Virus record (IMG/VR): IMGVR_UViG_3300034375_006496
Span: 1 to 27,869 of that record
DNA length: 27,869 nucleotides
Strand: one strand, 5' to 3'
Origin: a virus
Part shown: one piece after another, positions 2,857 through 11,840 of the stretch
Position numbering within the stretch: position 1 is the stretch's first letter
Layout: each line of letters begins with the position of its first letter
Notes under the pieces: model-generated
What the model was told of the DNA's origin: nothing
Database searches by the model: none
The model's input: the letters and a program-made list of their open reading frames with translations, nothing else
Program-made: the position numbers and the translations under genes

Positions 2857-3280
2857 ACCCCTCCACTATCGTGCAATCCTTTGGATCTATACGGAAGATA
2901 GGTTCTATATCCTGGGGATCACGGGTTGCTCGCGTCCTGCCTCCTAGTTCAAACTTATAATCCCTACTGAAATCCCATGTATGAAAACATAATGCATCCT
3001 TGCATCTGAAAATCAGAGTAAACTTCTTACCGCTTGTCTCGTATAACTGCTTTGCCGCCTCGATCTTCTTGTACGAAATCATAAACGGGAACTGCCCATA
3101 ATTAATATTTAAACACTTTAACTCCGCCCATCCGTAGTGGTCTCCCTTCTCAATCAGGAAATCCACCTTGTACTTAATCGGATTAAGCTTATGGAACACA
3201 CAATCCCATACCTTGCTCAGAAATCCACATACCTCCTTCTCATTATCGAGGTCAGCCTGTGTCTCGTACTTGGGTCTCAT
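2849..3280 (-). CDS. PD-(D/E)XK-like nuclease or nuclease-fold protein
   Basis: The 143-residue protein is called from ATG 3280, which forms a TAATG overlap with the stop of the upstream PP-loop gene; a 14-residue extension upstream in frame is unlikely. Residues around 38-55 read YKVDFLIEKG then WAELKCLN, giving D40 and E53-x-K55, the spacing expected for a PD-(D/E)XK active site. Such domains occur in phage resolvases, VRR-NUC-type nucleases and packaging-associated endonucleases. It sits between a PP-loop enzyme and the large terminase, with overlaps on both sides, so it could act in DNA processing linked to packaging. The role is an inference; only the putative catalytic triad and the position are visible. 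It contains several cysteines but no zinc-binding CxxC pair. Confidence 0.55.
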   Translation of the reverse strand: MRPKYETQADLDNEKEVCGFLSKVWDCVFHKLNPIKYKVDFLIEKGDHYGWAELKCLNINYGQFPFMISYKKIEAAKQLYETSGKKFTLIFRCKDALCFHTWDFSRDYKFELGGRTRATRDPQDIEPIFRIDPKDCTIVEGYA

Positions 3281-4122
3281 TATACCCCGCACATCCCTTC
3301 GCACTCTGCCATAAAATCCCAAGTCTCTTGTCCTTTATCTTCATCATTATCAAAATCTATTTCCCCAAGTGGCTTGCATGAGCGATGGAGGAATGCTTCC
3401 ATTTTCATACCTTGGTCTTGTTTTGACAATTCTCTTACTTGGGAATCAAACTCTATTGCCTTTTGAAAAAACTCAGGCTCATCATTCCGCAATCTCCGCC
3501 ACTCTTCATCACTATGAAAAGGGCAGTAATAACAGGCAGATCTCGGAGGCTCAGGATAACCATGTTTTTTCATCCATTGCTTGCAATGATACCTGTGCAT
3601 TTTCAAATCCACCAATGGGTATCTTAATTCAGTCCAAGGTTTTCGAGATTCCTTCATTCTTTGTAATTCATCATAAGATATGCCTATCCATTGAATTACC
3701 TTTACCTCTTTCTCGCCTCTTTTTATTCCTGCCAATTCAAGTATCTTTTTTTCTATTGGCCTTATCTTATAGTCTGCTGTGCAATTCCTCCCTAGTGCGG
3801 CTACCACTTCACCATCAGGCATCAAACCAAAGACAGGGATAATACGCTTCATGTATTTCTCGCCTTTCTTTCCCCACTTTCCATCCTTAGAACGCTCAAC
3901 CAACTGCAAAGATTTATCGGTAAGACTACCCTTAGTCACTCGATAAACAGGGAATGGAAGCTCTTTCTCAAGCCAATCTAACCATTCATAAACAGAGTCA
4001 GGCTCGGCTTGTGTATCTGCAAAGATCGCACAATCGGGCATCGGAGTAATCTCTCCCTTTGCCGCCATCAACGCCATTGTGGATGACTGCACACCCGCAC
4101 CTAAATTAATTACATTAATCAT
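3280..4122 (-). CDS. PP-loop ATPase, PAPS-reductase-like phage protein
   Basis: A 280-residue protein starting at ATG 4122 with an ATGA overlap to the gene before it. The N-terminal GAGVQSST (residues 8-15) is the PP-loop of the adenine nucleotide alpha-hydrolase fold, followed by FADTQAEPDSVYEWL at about 34-48. Later cysteines C114 (GRNCTADYKIRP), C180, C197 and C200 (ACYYCPFHSDEEW) could bind a metal or Fe-S cluster. The family includes PAPS reductase, DndC-type sulfur-transfer enzymes and many uncharacterised phage proteins. These enzymes activate a substrate through adenylation and often move sulfur. It lies two genes before the terminase and next to a nuclease-fold protein, which fits DNA or nucleotide modification, but no partner such as a cysteine desulfurase is visible. 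The function is unassigned beyond the fold. Confidence 0.75.
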   Translation of the reverse strand: MINVINLGAGVQSSTMALMAAKGEITPMPDCAIFADTQAEPDSVYEWLDWLEKELPFPVYRVTKGSLTDKSLQLVERSKDGKWGKKGEKYMKRIIPVFGLMPDGEVVAALGRNCTADYKIRPIEKKILELAGIKRGEKEVKVIQWIGISYDELQRMKESRKPWTELRYPLVDLKMHRYHCKQWMKKHGYPEPPRSACYYCPFHSDEEWRRLRNDEPEFFQKAIEFDSQVRELSKQDQGMKMEAFLHRSCKPLGEIDFDNDEDKGQETWDFMAECEGMCGV

Positions 4123-5756: not shown

Positions 5757-5763
5757 TGTAGTT
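5757..5763 (-). promoter_or_regulatory. Intergenic motif site 1 (AACTACA read on minus)
   Basis: Read on the minus strand as ATAAACTACAGAAGG, 12 nt before the start of the HTH gene and in the divergent gap to the plus-strand gene at 5806. It is one of seven exact copies at transcription-unit boundaries. Confidence 0.5.
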
Positions 5764-5805: not shown

Positions 5806-6324
5806 ATGGGTAATAAAGCCACCGTGAAAGCGCTCCGTAAGGACCTAAAAAACGATATCATCGATTCAGCCGCCAAAATAGCCATGAAGAAAGCAAATGC
5901 AGCTTCCGAAACCCGCAAGCTCCAGGCTAAGGCAAATGACCCCACAAAAAAACAAAAGGATATACAGGACTATACACGCCACTTCCTGCGCTACCGCCTG
6001 GAGATGACCGAGCAGGAATACCTAAACGCAGTATCCAACAAACTATCCGCCATAGTCGGAGACAATCTCAACCTCATCCACGAAAAACTCGATCAGATAC
6101 CTCCGCAAAACCTCGCCTATACCCTCTCAGTCCTCTTCGACAAACTCATGACCATTAACGGCAGACCCACAAACATCACCGCTTCTGCCAATGTCAAACT
6201 AGGTGCCTCCGATATGACCCCGGATAAGGTACGATCAATCCTCAAGGGTGCCAAGAAGGCCACAGATTCCCTCCCCAAGGAAGCCTCCGAGGATAAGGTC
6301 ATTGAAATATCCGATGAAGCGTAG
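5806..6324 (+). CDS. Small-terminase-like DNA-binding protein, 172 aa
   Basis: A lysine-rich N-terminus (about residues 1-50) is followed by a helical core with QEYLNAVSNKLSAIVGDNL and a segment LAYTLSVLFDKLMTINGRPT at about 104-123. The latter resembles the DKL-x-L-x-G-x-P-T pattern I associate with small terminase-like helix-turn-helix proteins of many phages, which recognise the packaging start. The C-terminus is acidic. It is unusual in being on the opposite strand and several kilobases from the large terminase. The leader is AT-rich with no Shine-Dalgarno. The next gene starts 11 nt before this one ends. Role uncertain; another DNA-binding accessory protein is possible. Confidence 0.45.
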   Translation: MGNKATVKALRKDLKNDIIDSAAKIAMKKANAASETRKLQAKANDPTKKQKDIQDYTRHFLRYRLEMTEQEYLNAVSNKLSAIVGDNLNLIHEKLDQIPPQNLAYTLSVLFDKLMTINGRPTNITASANVKLGASDMTPDKVRSILKGAKKATDSLPKEASEDKVIEISDEA

Positions 6325-6733
6325 AGGCTCCCTCTACGAACAAACTTTCTTCACCGAAGCCCTAGCCCGTAATCTCGAAGTATTTACACCCCTGGGCGAT
6401 TACCTCCCTCAGGATTGCCTAGTCATGAACCAAGCGGGCAAAATCTTTAAAGTACAAATAAAAGGCACTAAGGATAAAGTATTTGATAAACCAAATAAAG
6501 GACAGGGCAGATATATGGTCACCACCGCTTCAGGCACTTCCAAGAAAATGACCATAGATTGCACAAAGGTCGACATACTCGCCGCATATATAGAAGCCAT
6601 ACCCACCTGGTACATAATACCATGCCTCGAAATAAACCAGGCCGTGCGTATATCCCTCTACGCTCATAACCCCTCCTCCAAGGCAAAGCACGAAAAGTAC
6701 CGCGAGGCGTGGGATCTCTTTAAAACGCCCTAG
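6314..6733 (+). CDS. PD-(D/E)XK nuclease, resolvase/intron-endonuclease type, 139 aa
   Basis: Called from ATG 6314, because the longer frame from 6248 lies wholly inside the previous gene. The sequence reads GSLYEQTFFTEALARNLEVF, then PQDCLVM with D34, then KVQIKGT with Q48-x-K50, the D...QxK signature of small PD-(D/E)XK enzymes. E9 in the first helix is a further conserved-type residue. Such proteins include group I intron-associated endonucleases and Hjc-like resolvases. The C-terminal part (DILAAYIEAIPTWYIIPCLE) fits the strand-helix end of the fold. It is translated with the previous gene. An exact target or role is not visible; DNA junction processing or host DNA attack are both possible. 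Confidence 0.7.
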   Translation: MKRRGSLYEQTFFTEALARNLEVFTPLGDYLPQDCLVMNQAGKIFKVQIKGTKDKVFDKPNKGQGRYMVTTASGTSKKMTIDCTKVDILAAYIEAIPTWYIIPCLEINQAVRISLYAHNPSSKAKHEKYREAWDLFKTP

Positions 6734-6734
6734 A

Positions 6735-6741
6735 AACTACA
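6735..6741 (+). promoter_or_regulatory. Intergenic motif site 2 (AACTACA)
   Basis: It reads AAACTACATACGGATAC on the plus strand and starts directly after the TAG stop of the nuclease gene. The flank matches site 5 (GATGGATAC against TACGGATAC), so the conserved part is longer than the 7-bp core. Confidence 0.5.
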
Positions 6742-6993
6742 TACGGATACTGTGGGGCGCGAGGTGCGGGGGGCAGGATTGCGGGGAAACCATATGGCGA
6801 AAAAATTATGCGGGGTGGTGATGATAATACAGAATTAGCGCGGACGAGCGGCGACCCCCCTCCCCCCCTAGGTGTGGCTCGCGTCTCGATTTAGCGCGTG
6901 ATTCTAAGTCACATGCTATGCTTTGGCGTTGAATAGCAACGATTTACGAAAATGCACGCTAGAAAAGCGGGGAAACATGCTTGGTTTTTAGCG

Positions 6994-7042
6994 GGTTTGC
7001 CAGGTTTGCGGGGACCGGGTTTGCTTGGTTTGCCGGGTTTGC
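6994..7042 (+). repeat. Five GGTTTGC iterons
   Basis: Exact copies at 6994, 7003, 7018, 7027 and 7036, so with steps of 9, 15, 9 and 9 bp. Iterated words in a gene-free stretch are typical of replication origins or of slipped-strand expansion. No initiator target is known here. Confidence 0.7.
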
Positions 7043-7120
7043 GTGCAATCTGCTTTACATATGTATAGCAAATTCATTGATGGGGGAAGAAATGCATCAC
7101 ATTCGCATCGATTCTGCATT

Positions 7121-7164
7121 GGTTCCACTTTCCCGGCTTCCCAGGTTCCCGGTTCCCAGGTTCC
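7121..7164 (+). repeat. Four GGTTCC copies with matching inverted sequence nearby
   Basis: GGTTCC occurs at 7121, 7144, 7151 and 7159. The central CCCGGTTCCC (7148-7157) can pair with GGGAACCGG at about 7224-7232, which would enclose the 7212-7223 palindrome. This suggests RNA or cruciform structure just ahead of the Gp88-like gene. Confidence 0.55.
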
Positions 7165-7211
7165 GGCTCTTCCCTCTTTTTCGCTTGGTCCAGGTATTCG
7201 TTCAAACCGTT

Positions 7212-7223
7212 GGCCATATGGCC
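7212..7223. repeat. Perfect palindrome GGCCATATGGCC
   Basis: A 12-bp perfect palindrome in the gene-free region, 120 bp before the Gp88-like gene. It could be a dimeric-protein site or part of a local fold. It also resembles ACCATATGGC at about 6790. Confidence 0.5.
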
Positions 7224-7255
7224 GGGAACCGGCCCGTTGGCCCGCGTTAGTAGGG

Positions 7256-7267
7256 ACGCGCTTTTAT
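7256..7267 (+). repeat. Left copy of 12-bp direct repeat flanking the Gp88 cassette
   Basis: ACGCGCTTTTAT, exact match to 8689-8700 on the other side of genes 7345-8665. After each copy comes an AT-rich stretch (TATAGTT or TTATTTG) and then CTACA. A 9-bp part is present a third time at 8664-8672. Confidence 0.55.
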
Positions 7268-7324
7268 ATAGTTATAACCTACAAAACATTTTTTTGTTTT
7301 ATTTGCTTGCTATTTGTTCTCATG

Positions 7325-7331
7325 TGTAGTT
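7325..7331 (-). promoter_or_regulatory. Intergenic motif site 3
   Basis: TGTAGTTTATAGGG on the plus strand, 14 nt before the ATG of the Gp88-like gene (AACTACACATG on the minus strand). It is the only exact copy lying closely upstream of a plus-strand gene in the TGTAGTT sense, apart from site 6. Confidence 0.5.
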
Positions 7332-7344
7332 TATAGGGTACGGT

Positions 7345-8328
7345 ATGAAAGAAAAAACTATGATTCCACCTAAACTATCAACGCCGGGTAAAATCGATTT
7401 AGCGCGGGCCGCGCTTGCAAATGATTTACCCTTACTCTCAAAACTAGTTGCGGCTATTCCTGGGGACCCGAGCGCGACAAATACAACTAAGTACTTTGCA
7501 ACGGGATTTTTGACTTGGTTCGTGGACCAAAGCGGGCCAACGCCGTTTTCCGTATTTGCGGCGGCGGGAAATATGAAATTGCCATTTTACGCGTTTTCGA
7601 GTTTGCCCGGTTTTGATTGTCCGGGCGCGGGCGCTTGTTTGTACGGTGAAAATGAATTCACGCCGGATAACTTTGGCAAGGGATGGTGCTATTCATTTAC
7701 CGGGTGGCGCTACCCGGCGGCGTTTTTTCGTCAATTGCAAAACTCTATTTTGTTACGGTCAAAAGCGGGCCGAGCAATCGTTGCAAGTGAATTTGCGAAT
7801 ATACCCGCCGGGCGTACCGTTCGCTTATATGTAGACGGTGACTTTGCCAATTTAGCTATTTTGCGTTTTTGGATGGACCAATGCAAATCTAGAGATGACA
7901 TTACAATTGCGGGCCATAATGGAATTGCCGGCTACGGGTACAGTAAGTCATGGAAGCTTTTCCTTGAACTAGATAAGCAAGGGTATGAATGGCCCAAAAA
8001 CTATTTGCTAAATGTTTCGAGCGGGTCCCGGTACGGTTCAACCGTAAAAGAAAAGCTTTTGCAATTGGATTGCACGCGCGGCGAATTTGTGGCGGTACCG
8101 GTTGCGAGAAAGTGGATAACTAGCAAGGCCTACCAGGATAAAGACAATGAAGGGTCCAAAGAATACCGGAAAGAAGTATTACAAGCGCTAAAGGAAGCGG
8201 GCCACGAAAAGAGATTTGCTTGTCCGGGAGCATGTGGCAATTGCATTGCCAGGAAAAAACATGCTTGCGGCGAAGGCCGTTTACGCGGCGTTACAATTGG
8301 CATTGGAATACACAGCGTTAAAGGATAA
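7345..8328 (+). CDS. Gp88-like cysteine-rich protein, 327 aa
   Basis: The central part has AAAGNMKLPFYAFSSLPG followed by CPGAGACLYG (C92, C98), then WCYSFTGWRYP (C115), RLYVDGDFANL at about 160-170, GYGYSKSW and a late cysteine cluster CPGACGNC (C293, C297, C300) with C308. This order (GN-K-x-P, LP, CPGAxxC, then a D-G-D-F strand, a Y-S/T-K-S segment and a final Cys cluster) resembles the Gene product 88 family known from actinophages and plasmids, whose function is unknown. The cysteine spacing suggests an Fe-S or zinc site. Start may be M1 at 7345 or M6 at 7360. The word GCGGGCC occurs five times in this gene, and its use of GCG, TTT and TTG differs from neighbours, suggesting recent transfer. 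Two tiny genes follow in the same unit. Confidence 0.65.
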   Translation: MKEKTMIPPKLSTPGKIDLARAALANDLPLLSKLVAAIPGDPSATNTTKYFATGFLTWFVDQSGPTPFSVFAAAGNMKLPFYAFSSLPGFDCPGAGACLYGENEFTPDNFGKGWCYSFTGWRYPAAFFRQLQNSILLRSKAGRAIVASEFANIPAGRTVRLYVDGDFANLAILRFWMDQCKSRDDITIAGHNGIAGYGYSKSWKLFLELDKQGYEWPKNYLLNVSSGSRYGSTVKEKLLQLDCTRGEFVAVPVARKWITSKAYQDKDNEGSKEYRKEVLQALKEAGHEKRFACPGACGNCIARKKHACGEGRLRGVTIGIGIHSVKG

Positions 8329-8333
8329 GAGAA

Positions 8334-8510
8334 ATGAATTCAAAACTATTTAAGCAAATACCCGAACACGAAAAAAGCACTTGCCCGCATTGCAAGCAAA
8401 GTAAACCTAATTGGCTATTCTTTTATGATCGCGGGCAATGGAATTTTAATTTGTGCGATGAATGCGGAACATCTAAAGAGGTTAAAGAATATAGAAAAAA
8501 GAACAAATGA
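8334..8510 (+). CDS. Zinc-ribbon-like small protein, 58 aa
   Basis: It begins 6 nt after the Gp88-like stop. A CPHC (residues 17-20) and CDEC (41-44) pair separated by an aromatic stretch (NWLFFYDRGQWNFNL) is a classic zinc-ribbon or treble-clef arrangement, followed by a basic tail. The end is joined to the next gene by an ATGA overlap. Zinc ribbons of this size bind DNA, RNA or protein. No named family. The close placement suggests it works with the Gp88-like protein. Confidence 0.7.
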   Translation: MNSKLFKQIPEHEKSTCPHCKQSKPNWLFFYDRGQWNFNLCDECGTSKEVKEYRKKNK

Positions 8511-8665
8511 ATAAGGAACAAATACGCGCTTTGCTTGGTCAGCTCATAAGCTTGCAAGCCATGATAAGAGAAATGGAAGAAAAAGGATTTTCATGGGATA
8601 AGATGCAATCAATAAAAGATAATTTGCGGCTTATGATTATAGACATTGAGAAAACACTCGATTGA
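8507..8665 (+). CDS. Small helical protein, 52 aa
   Basis: ATG 8507 overlaps the TGA of the zinc-ribbon gene. The whole sequence is predicted helical (IRALLGQLISLQAMIREMEE, then DKMQSIKDNLRLMIIDIEK), like a two-helix hairpin. It closes the three-gene cassette. No family recognised; a small partner or regulator is plausible. Confidence 0.6.
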   Translation: MNKEQIRALLGQLISLQAMIREMEEKGFSWDKMQSIKDNLRLMIIDIEKTLD

Positions 8666-8688
8666 CGCGCTTCTAATCCAAACGAGAA

Positions 8689-8700
8689 ACGCGCTTTTAT
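8689..8700 (+). repeat. Right copy of 12-bp direct repeat flanking the Gp88 cassette
   Basis: ACGCGCTTTTAT, identical to 7256-7267. It lies 24 bp after the end of the last cassette gene and just before motif site 4. Together the copies bound about 1.43 kb of compositionally different DNA, as if duplicated or recombined at insertion. Confidence 0.55.
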
Positions 8701-8729: not shown

Positions 8730-8831
8730 ATGAATACACTATTTGAGTTAATACTATTTTTTCCCTGGGTTCCGGTTTTCGCAGTCATAGCCTGGGACCT
8801 TATCCAATACGAGAAAGGCGGGGACCTATGA
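8730..8831 (+). CDS. Membrane micro-protein, 33 aa
   Basis: MNTLFELILFFPWVPVFAVI gives a single transmembrane helix, followed by a short charged end (DLIQYEKGGDL). The stop overlaps the ATG of the next gene. A CA repeat precedes the start rather than a Shine-Dalgarno. Function unknown; phage early membrane peptides often alter host membrane functions. Confidence 0.55.
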   Translation: MNTLFELILFFPWVPVFAVIAWDLIQYEKGGDL

Positions 8832-9034
8832 AACACGCCAAAAACCTATTCGCGGAAGCGGTCAGTCAATTGATCGAGATGGGAGAGAAACAGCGGAAAT
8901 TACTCCAGGAGAAGGAGAAAGCGGTTGATCATTCCGATCGTGAAACGATCTCGCAGATCCGCGCTAAGGAGAAACGCGCACATGTGAGGCTTACGGAGAG
9001 GGAGAAAGTGCAATTACATTTTAACTTCAACTAA
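8828..9034 (+). CDS. Small coiled-coil protein, 68 aa
   Basis: Highly charged and helical throughout (EMGEKQRKLLQEKEKAVDHS; REREKVQ-like end), predicted as a coiled coil. ATG 8828 overlaps the stop of the membrane micro-protein and is preceded by GGCGGGGACCT. No family recognised. It belongs to the early small-gene unit. Confidence 0.65.
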   Translation: MKHAKNLFAEAVSQLIEMGEKQRKLLQEKEKAVDHSDRETISQIRAKEKRAHVRLTEREKVQLHFNFN

Positions 9035-11355: not shown

Positions 11356-11840
11356 CAAAACTCTTCCTCGTCCTCATACTCAGGAATTGTGACCTCCTTG
11401 AGAATAGGATCGTTATTTCCCTGTGGCATCTTCTCCTTGATCCATCTCCTGCACGCATTCCGGTATGTGGCAATCCAATCAGCCTGGGTATGTCCCTTCC
11501 CTTTTGCCCAATCCACGAAGATGGAAACCGCTTTCTCATGATCAAGTCCTTCCTTCTCAGCAATATCTTTTGGGGGGGCAAAATTAGAGGGGATCTTTGA
11601 TGCCCTCGTTTTTGATTTCTTTTTTCCACTAACCGCGGATTTTTCGCTATATCTAATATTAAAACAATTGGAACAATTGTCGCGCACGCGCGAGGGATGC
11701 CGCAGATACTCCACCAGGAGTGGAGTAATGGTGGAAACTGCGGTAACTCCATAAAGATCACAATGCTCTTTCAAAAGATCACTTATCCATTGAGGAACCT
11801 TGATGCGCAGTTCTGTCTTTTTCTGTATTTCGTCTGTCAT
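11355..11840 (-). CDS. Putative primosomal/helicase-loading protein, 161 aa
   Basis: Start set at 11840 because it forms a TAATG junction with the membrane micro-ORF; an upstream in-frame extension of 20 residues is unlikely. The N-terminus (ELRIKVPQWISDLLKEHC) resembles a small DNA-binding or winged-helix segment. A lysine-rich linker at about 72-82 follows. The C-terminal DWIATYRNACRRWIKEK resembles the W-xx-A-x-R-NW ending of phage replication O/DnaT-type proteins, which bring DnaB to the origin. The position directly before dnaB supports this. A CSNC pair at about 56-59 is present. The assignment is by context and one motif, so moderate. Confidence 0.5.
   Translation of the reverse strand: MTDEIQKKTELRIKVPQWISDLLKEHCDLYGVTAVSTITPLLVEYLRHPSRVRDNCSNCFNIRYSEKSAVSGKKKSKTRASKIPSNFAPPKDIAEKEGLDHEKAVSIFVDWAKGKGHTQADWIATYRNACRRWIKEKMPQGNNDPILKEVTIPEYEDEEEF

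Follow-up and report, generated by a model that had tools for sequence, protein, structure and literature searches.

Three adjacent genes in a phage described as marine raise the question of whether they are a recently arrived module or an established part of the genome and, with it, what the largest of them, which encodes a protein of the GP88 family, is doing there. The phage is represented in IMG/VR by a virus contig of 27,869 bases, here termed the window, with genes for an integrase, a DnaB helicase, an exonuclease and structural proteins; several contigs among its relatives are 34.6-36.6 kb. A search of 50,697 named phages with bases 1-25000 gave no near match for the window, and the nearest terL relative among them, also the sole one found, is that of Phage C75C1 at 31% identity. 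(CDS0001 of the latter phage, L136, is a very large ORF of >2,500 aa without a PHROG match or an informative PDB sequence match.) Terminase relatives are present in two assemblies of Verrucomicrobiota (one is named Opitutia), which makes a host from this phylum probable, though the binning could be in error. A PAPS-reductase-like gene at 3280-4122 of the window (PHROG 424, E 3.5e-48; SspD model, E 2e-18) is optional, with only some relatives having it.

As the initial annotation had it, the interval 7345-8665 has three ORFs, of 327, 58 and 52 aa. With their left-hand neighbor they are:

6248 to 6733, plus strand: PD-(D/E)XK endonuclease-like protein, the left flank of the slot (PF11645, E 1.9e-12; PADLOC homing endonuclease model, E 6.7e-07).
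7345 to 8328, plus strand: long GP88-family protein of 327 aa with seven invariant cysteines, from its PF17338 match, its relatives and cysteine counts.
8334 to 8510, plus strand: zinc-ribbon-like protein of 58 aa, CxxC...CxxC, optional; it has sub-threshold zinc-ribbon matches only and is present at a minority of gp88 loci.
8507 to 8665, plus strand: small helical-type protein of 52 aa, by locus comparison the regular downstream partner of long GP88.

Relatives of the window's long GP88 protein are encoded by 35 virus contigs, at 63-100% identity. Wherever both flanks are covered, gene maps place long gp88 between the PD-(D/E)XK protein and the genes upstream of dnaB, and the 52-aa gene is 3′ of it in every locus with its downstream side covered (L021 and L035 end inside gp88 and so are outside this count). 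The same place is taken in other contigs by a short GP88 of about 231 aa, complete and 80-100% alike in 18 of them and incomplete in a 19th, and short-GP88 loci never have the 52-aa gene. Comparison of the 35 long and 19 short cases gave no contig with both. Neither form is present in several relatives that are covered across the site; a DUF7249 protein is at the slot in some GP88-less relatives and, in L008, beside the long form too. The slot is a fixed accessory-gene position where the rightward gene block begins in this integrase-bearing phage group. The earlier proposal of an accessory module of undescribed function is supported. Of its two suggested partners, the helical mini-protein is confirmed at every covered locus and the zinc ribbon only at a minority, and it is long gp88 with the 52-aa gene, rather than all three genes, that recurs regularly in other phages.

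Identity of Gp88 between phages closely follows that of dnaB (r = 0.89, 210 pairs), with Gp88 the better conserved in 173 of the 210, yet in phages whose dnaB is 99% identical Gp88 identity can be as low as 86-89%. Because it tracks dnaB while showing such exceptions, gp88 has long been resident in the group, where some copies have been lost or exchanged, and is not a newcomer.

What is novel in the cassette is a variant of a known uncharacterized family in a swappable slot. The window protein matches PF17338 (GP88) with E 1.1e-10 and 42.3 bits, against a curated cut-off of 24.4, and all 31 of 31 relatives match it (E <= 1, best 3.4e-16); by sequence it is a divergent long member of that family. 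GP88 has 265 records, and hundreds of phage genomes contain it; in some Autographiviridae its genes are close to the left end and precede that for the RNA polymerase. No functional study of it was found among the literature titles and abstracts retrieved. BLAST from the window protein found no long GP88 in named phages, a more distant GP88 member used as query reached Synechococcus phages (E 1e-6 to 6e-4), and the long form was not found in bacterial genomes. Long and short GP88 both match PHROG 1392 and PF17338; the window protein gives no match to PHROG 1617, the short-form family, and profile-profile comparison of the two forms is weak (P 0.0013, probability 18%).

The initial annotation counted seven cysteines in the window protein; there are nine, two of which (C180 and C243) vary among relatives, and the seven that it named, C92, C98, C115, C293, C297, C300 and C308, correspond precisely to the cysteines conserved without exception in relatives. 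When 21 diverse GP88 proteins are aligned, which come from marine, soil, actinobacterial and archaeal viruses and include those of Mycobacterium, Streptomyces, Synechococcus, Pelagibacter, Xanthomonas (jumbo) and Methanomassiliicoccales, the invariant positions are C92, C98, C115, R160, D166, Y199, S225 and G286.

The function that we consider the most likely is as follows. The unit in this phage is long GP88 with its 52-aa helical partner, the zinc ribbon being an optional extra. GP88 would be a radical-SAM-like iron-sulfur protein in which a [4Fe-4S] cluster bound by C92, C98 and C115 cleaves S-adenosylmethionine, with the motifs around D164-D166 and Y197-S202 placed in the barrel and C293, C297, C300 and C308 holding a second metal center. 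Made early, as the position of its gene suggests, GP88 may act on a nucleic acid or protein, of the host or of the phage, modifying it to aid takeover or defense evasion; the 52-aa protein would then serve as its adaptor or regulator. We put the chances of a radical-SAM-like GP88 at about even: its position, pairing, exclusivity and conservation are observed, and we infer the cofactor, chemistry, timing and target. The metal cofactor chemistry that had been considered possible from the outset is still the best guess, whether with a metal or with iron-sulfur.

Several observations point towards radical SAM. Along GP88 the three cysteines are followed by a GD/SD strand motif and then by a TK/SK strand motif, an order of cysteines, GD/SD and TK motifs that we take to be shared with DUF5131 (Gp37/Gp68, PF07505), a family presumably radical-SAM-like itself. 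Two GP88 members match DUF5131 weakly, with E 0.0037 and E 0.0079, the latter being the GP88 gene of Streptomyces phage Gilgamesh, and depositors have named other GP88 proteins Gp37/Gp68-like. All these matches are below the curated cut-off of 28.9 bits, the best GP88 member reaching 17.2, and the window protein itself has no match to PF07505. The predicted model of the window protein (pLDDT 70, pTM 0.71) matches GP88-annotated viral models. In the second of the comparisons with solved structures, ranks 1-6 for this model are all spore photoproduct lyase, a radical SAM enzyme (Z 5.4-6.1, the next being 4.2), though Z below 8 can be chance and about 6 is inside the chance range for barrels. The alignments with the lyase extend over 184-191 residues at 5.1-5.9 A, and DesII and TsrM are also in the top ten structural neighbors. 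Foldseek with the same model gave no solved structure (best E 0.16), and a sequence-profile search of solved structures with GP88 gave nothing useful. The predicted model of short GP88, at pLDDT 38.5, is too poor for use.

The cysteines could instead be structural, in a zinc- or iron-sulfur-bound protein that binds nucleic acid or acts in host takeover without radical chemistry. No GP88 member matches Pfam Radical_SAM (PF04055), and the structural support for radical SAM is weak. The canonical CxxxCxxC is absent from the start of the barrel, where the spacing is the non-canonical C-x5-C-x16-C; letters fitting CxxxCxxC do occur at 293-300 of the window protein, but these are at the C-terminus and are not shared by other GP88 proteins, and the C-terminal CPGACGNC...C resembles a zinc knuckle. 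Against this, the three cysteines together with R160 and D166 are invariant even in proteins that do not have the C-terminal cluster, which reads more like a cofactor site, and it is spore photoproduct lyase that takes first rank. Structural cysteines are a real possibility, and one that we would on balance bet against. A locus at which the long and the short form take each other's place, with just one of the two accompanied by a small partner, lends itself to probing the role of GP88 and hints at a cofactor worth assaying.

An anti-defense or superinfection-exclusion locus, in which host pressure drives the swapping of the long and short forms of GP88 and of other small genes, would account for the gain, loss and exchange seen at one fixed site among close relatives, and a Gp88 identity of 86-89% between phages with 99% identical dnaB does suggest short-range exchange. 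PADLOC, however, gave no informative match here, a CARF model being hit at chance level only (E 0.01), and GP88 is present in very diverse viruses with no known link to defense, so that we regard such a role for the slot as rather unlikely.

There remains the recent acquisition of foreign DNA between direct repeats that had at first been proposed. The elements concerned are:

7243 to 7267, plus strand: repeat copy 1, a terminator-like hairpin CGCGT(TAGTAGGG)ACGCG followed by CTTTTAT (written whole, CGCGTTAGTAGGGACGCG-CTTTTAT), the 12-mer being its 3′ arm plus the T-run.
7325 to 7332, minus strand: AAACTACA motif (TGTAGTTT on the plus strand), within the putative promoter just before gp88.
8666 to 8700, plus strand: repeat copy 2, a terminator-like hairpin GCGC.TTCT...AGAA.GCGC followed by TTTTATTT, directly 3′ of the 52-aa gene.

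The description of exact 12-bp repeats, each followed by CTACA, was borne out. The 12-mer ACGCGCTTTTAT has exactly two copies in the window, at 7256 and 8689, and CTACA is 3′ of both, at 7279 and 8714. At least two matches with at most one mismatch were obtained in 1 of 100 shuffles, for a 12-mer that had been picked after being seen; likeness between the copies extends to 18 nt at 89%. The second CTACA is part of AAACTACA and the first is in the context ACCTACA. Copies of AAACTACA on either strand are beside the ends of transcription units, at 5757, 6734, 7325, 8711 and 10090, and it may be an operator or promoter element.

Among relatives the two repeats vary independently of the cassette. 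L040 has no cassette and yet has copy 1; its neighboring genes are mostly 97-100% identical to those of the window, and its slot is not empty, being filled by other genes. The cassette is present in L006, L007, L010 and L011 and copy 1 is changed, while in L005 and L009 copy 1 is present and copy 2 changed; at the position of copy 2 relatives often have a hairpin, and some variants do not fold. Because of this independence the 12-mers do not behave as a target-site duplication, and they fit two terminator-like or regulatory elements, one before and one after the unit, better than insertion scars. Insertion with target-site duplication was considered and rejected, as one copy at empty sites and two at filled sites is not the pattern in relatives; the single copy looked for in cassette-less relatives is there in L040, and elsewhere the repeats come and go on their own.

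Nor is the composition foreign. The G+C content of gp88, 47.5%, is similar to that of its neighbors, and its codon-usage z of -3.5 is no odder than the -3.1 and -4.6 of the core genes terL and g5806. Both small genes are rich in A+T (34-35% G+C) and have a codon z of about +0.4, which fits the phage. The 7-mer GCGGGCC does occur five times in gp88, spread over three reading frames, when synonymous-codon shuffles of the gene give a mean of 0.84 and none of 2000 reaches five, and although it had not been noticed elsewhere in the window, a further copy is close by at 7239 on the minus strand. Recent insertion of a mobile module between target-site-type repeats is very improbable and largely refuted: the two exact 12-mers that flank the cassette and the one copy in its close relative L040 speak for it, and against it are the hairpin to which each 12-mer belongs and their independent variation, the divergence of Gp88 in step with dnaB, normal codon usage, a fixed site, the lack of a recombinase in the cassette and the other genes at the site in L040.

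The intergenic region 6734-7250, ahead of the slot, has imperfect repeats (GGGTTTGCC and GGTTCCC types) that differ strongly between relatives, and base skew and gene direction change near it; it is a possible replication origin.

A rarer feature, and the most surprising one near the cassette, is a hairpin of 15 nt with a perfect 6-bp stem and a GNA loop:

7220 to 7234, plus strand: GNA-triloop hairpin GGCCGG-GAA-CCGGCC in the leader, inside a two-tier stem (outer arms 7212 to 7242).
8828 to 9034, plus strand: 68-aa ORF (MKHA...) bearing the conserved hairpin.
8936 to 8950, plus strand: hairpin of the same type, GATCGT-GAA-ACGATC, inside ORF 8828-9034 and coding DRETI.

A third case with a GAA loop is at 11665 (CAATTG-GAA-CAATTG), making three in the window when 0.1 are expected. 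Stems among relatives include GATCGT, GGCCGG, GACCGT, TGCCAT and CCTCGT, as well as others, with changes on the two sides matched. Ahead of the slot, 43 such hairpins were counted on the plus strand, spread over 30 of 48 distinct stretches, against 4 on the other strand. The outer stem of the leader also changes in step (GGCC/GGCC, GATC/GATC, CGTC/GACG). In relatives such as L007 and L073 the two-tier palindrome at 7205-7250 goes from GGCC to GATC at four positions at once.

In genes like 8828-9034, which were picked by their N-terminal motif alone, the hairpin is perfect in all 38 of 38 distinct copies; for comparison, 71 of 3227 other small ORFs, a set that holds near-duplicates, have one of this class anywhere. 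The peptide encoded across it varies (DRETI, DRETV, PRETR, GRETA, DHEMV, DREAI, DRGPI), and its retention despite these amino acid changes points to selection on a folded nucleic acid within the coding sequence. In 32 distinct gene copies 192 of 192 pair cells are paired, a percentage biased towards structure by the cutting of 33-mers at each gene's best-pairing position (the 38 of 38 is less biased), and five of the six pairs have two-sided changes. None of 500 shuffles and no slid control reaches the covariation score of these 32. One exact form, GATCGTGAAACGATCCGCG, is in 26 virus contigs, all with genes of this phage group. Different stems coexist in one genome, which argues against a protein that reads the letters of the stem and for reading of the folded shape or the loop. 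In L023, L024, L025 and L027 the dnaB 5′ region has additional GNA-triloop hairpins, which are on the plus strand and antisense to dnaB.

Tentatively, and with rather less than even confidence, the hairpins in the leader, in gene 8828-9034 and, in relatives, near the start of dnaB may be a new type of phage signal that is read as folded single-stranded DNA or RNA, such as a hairpin promoter or a replication or antitermination site, under selection strong enough to force paired changes of codons and amino acids in a protein gene. The proposal is directly testable. Rfam gave no match in the window.

With the Pfam GP88 family (PF17338; PHROG 1617, 1392) the window protein has in common three cysteines and the R...GD, YxYTK/YGYSK and N...S motifs, and differs in some 70 additional N-terminal residues, a four-cysteine C-terminus and the regular 52-aa partner. 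Spore photoproduct lyase and the radical SAM superfamily are the top structural neighbors of its model, a likeness that is statistically weak, and from them it differs in having no sequence match and in the non-canonical spacing of its cysteines. For the hairpin the closest parallel is phage N4, whose early promoters are short hairpins read by shape and some fixed bases, with variable stem bases tolerated as long as the hairpin is kept (PMC4496689). Sequence searches with the largest proteins, whether from the group or from its relative C75C1, found no match to a virion RNA polymerase, a divergent enzyme being possible, so that for now an N4-type promoter is just a lead. Compared with the promoters of the N4 virion RNA polymerase, the GNA-triloop hairpin has other conserved bases and is also located within coding sequence.
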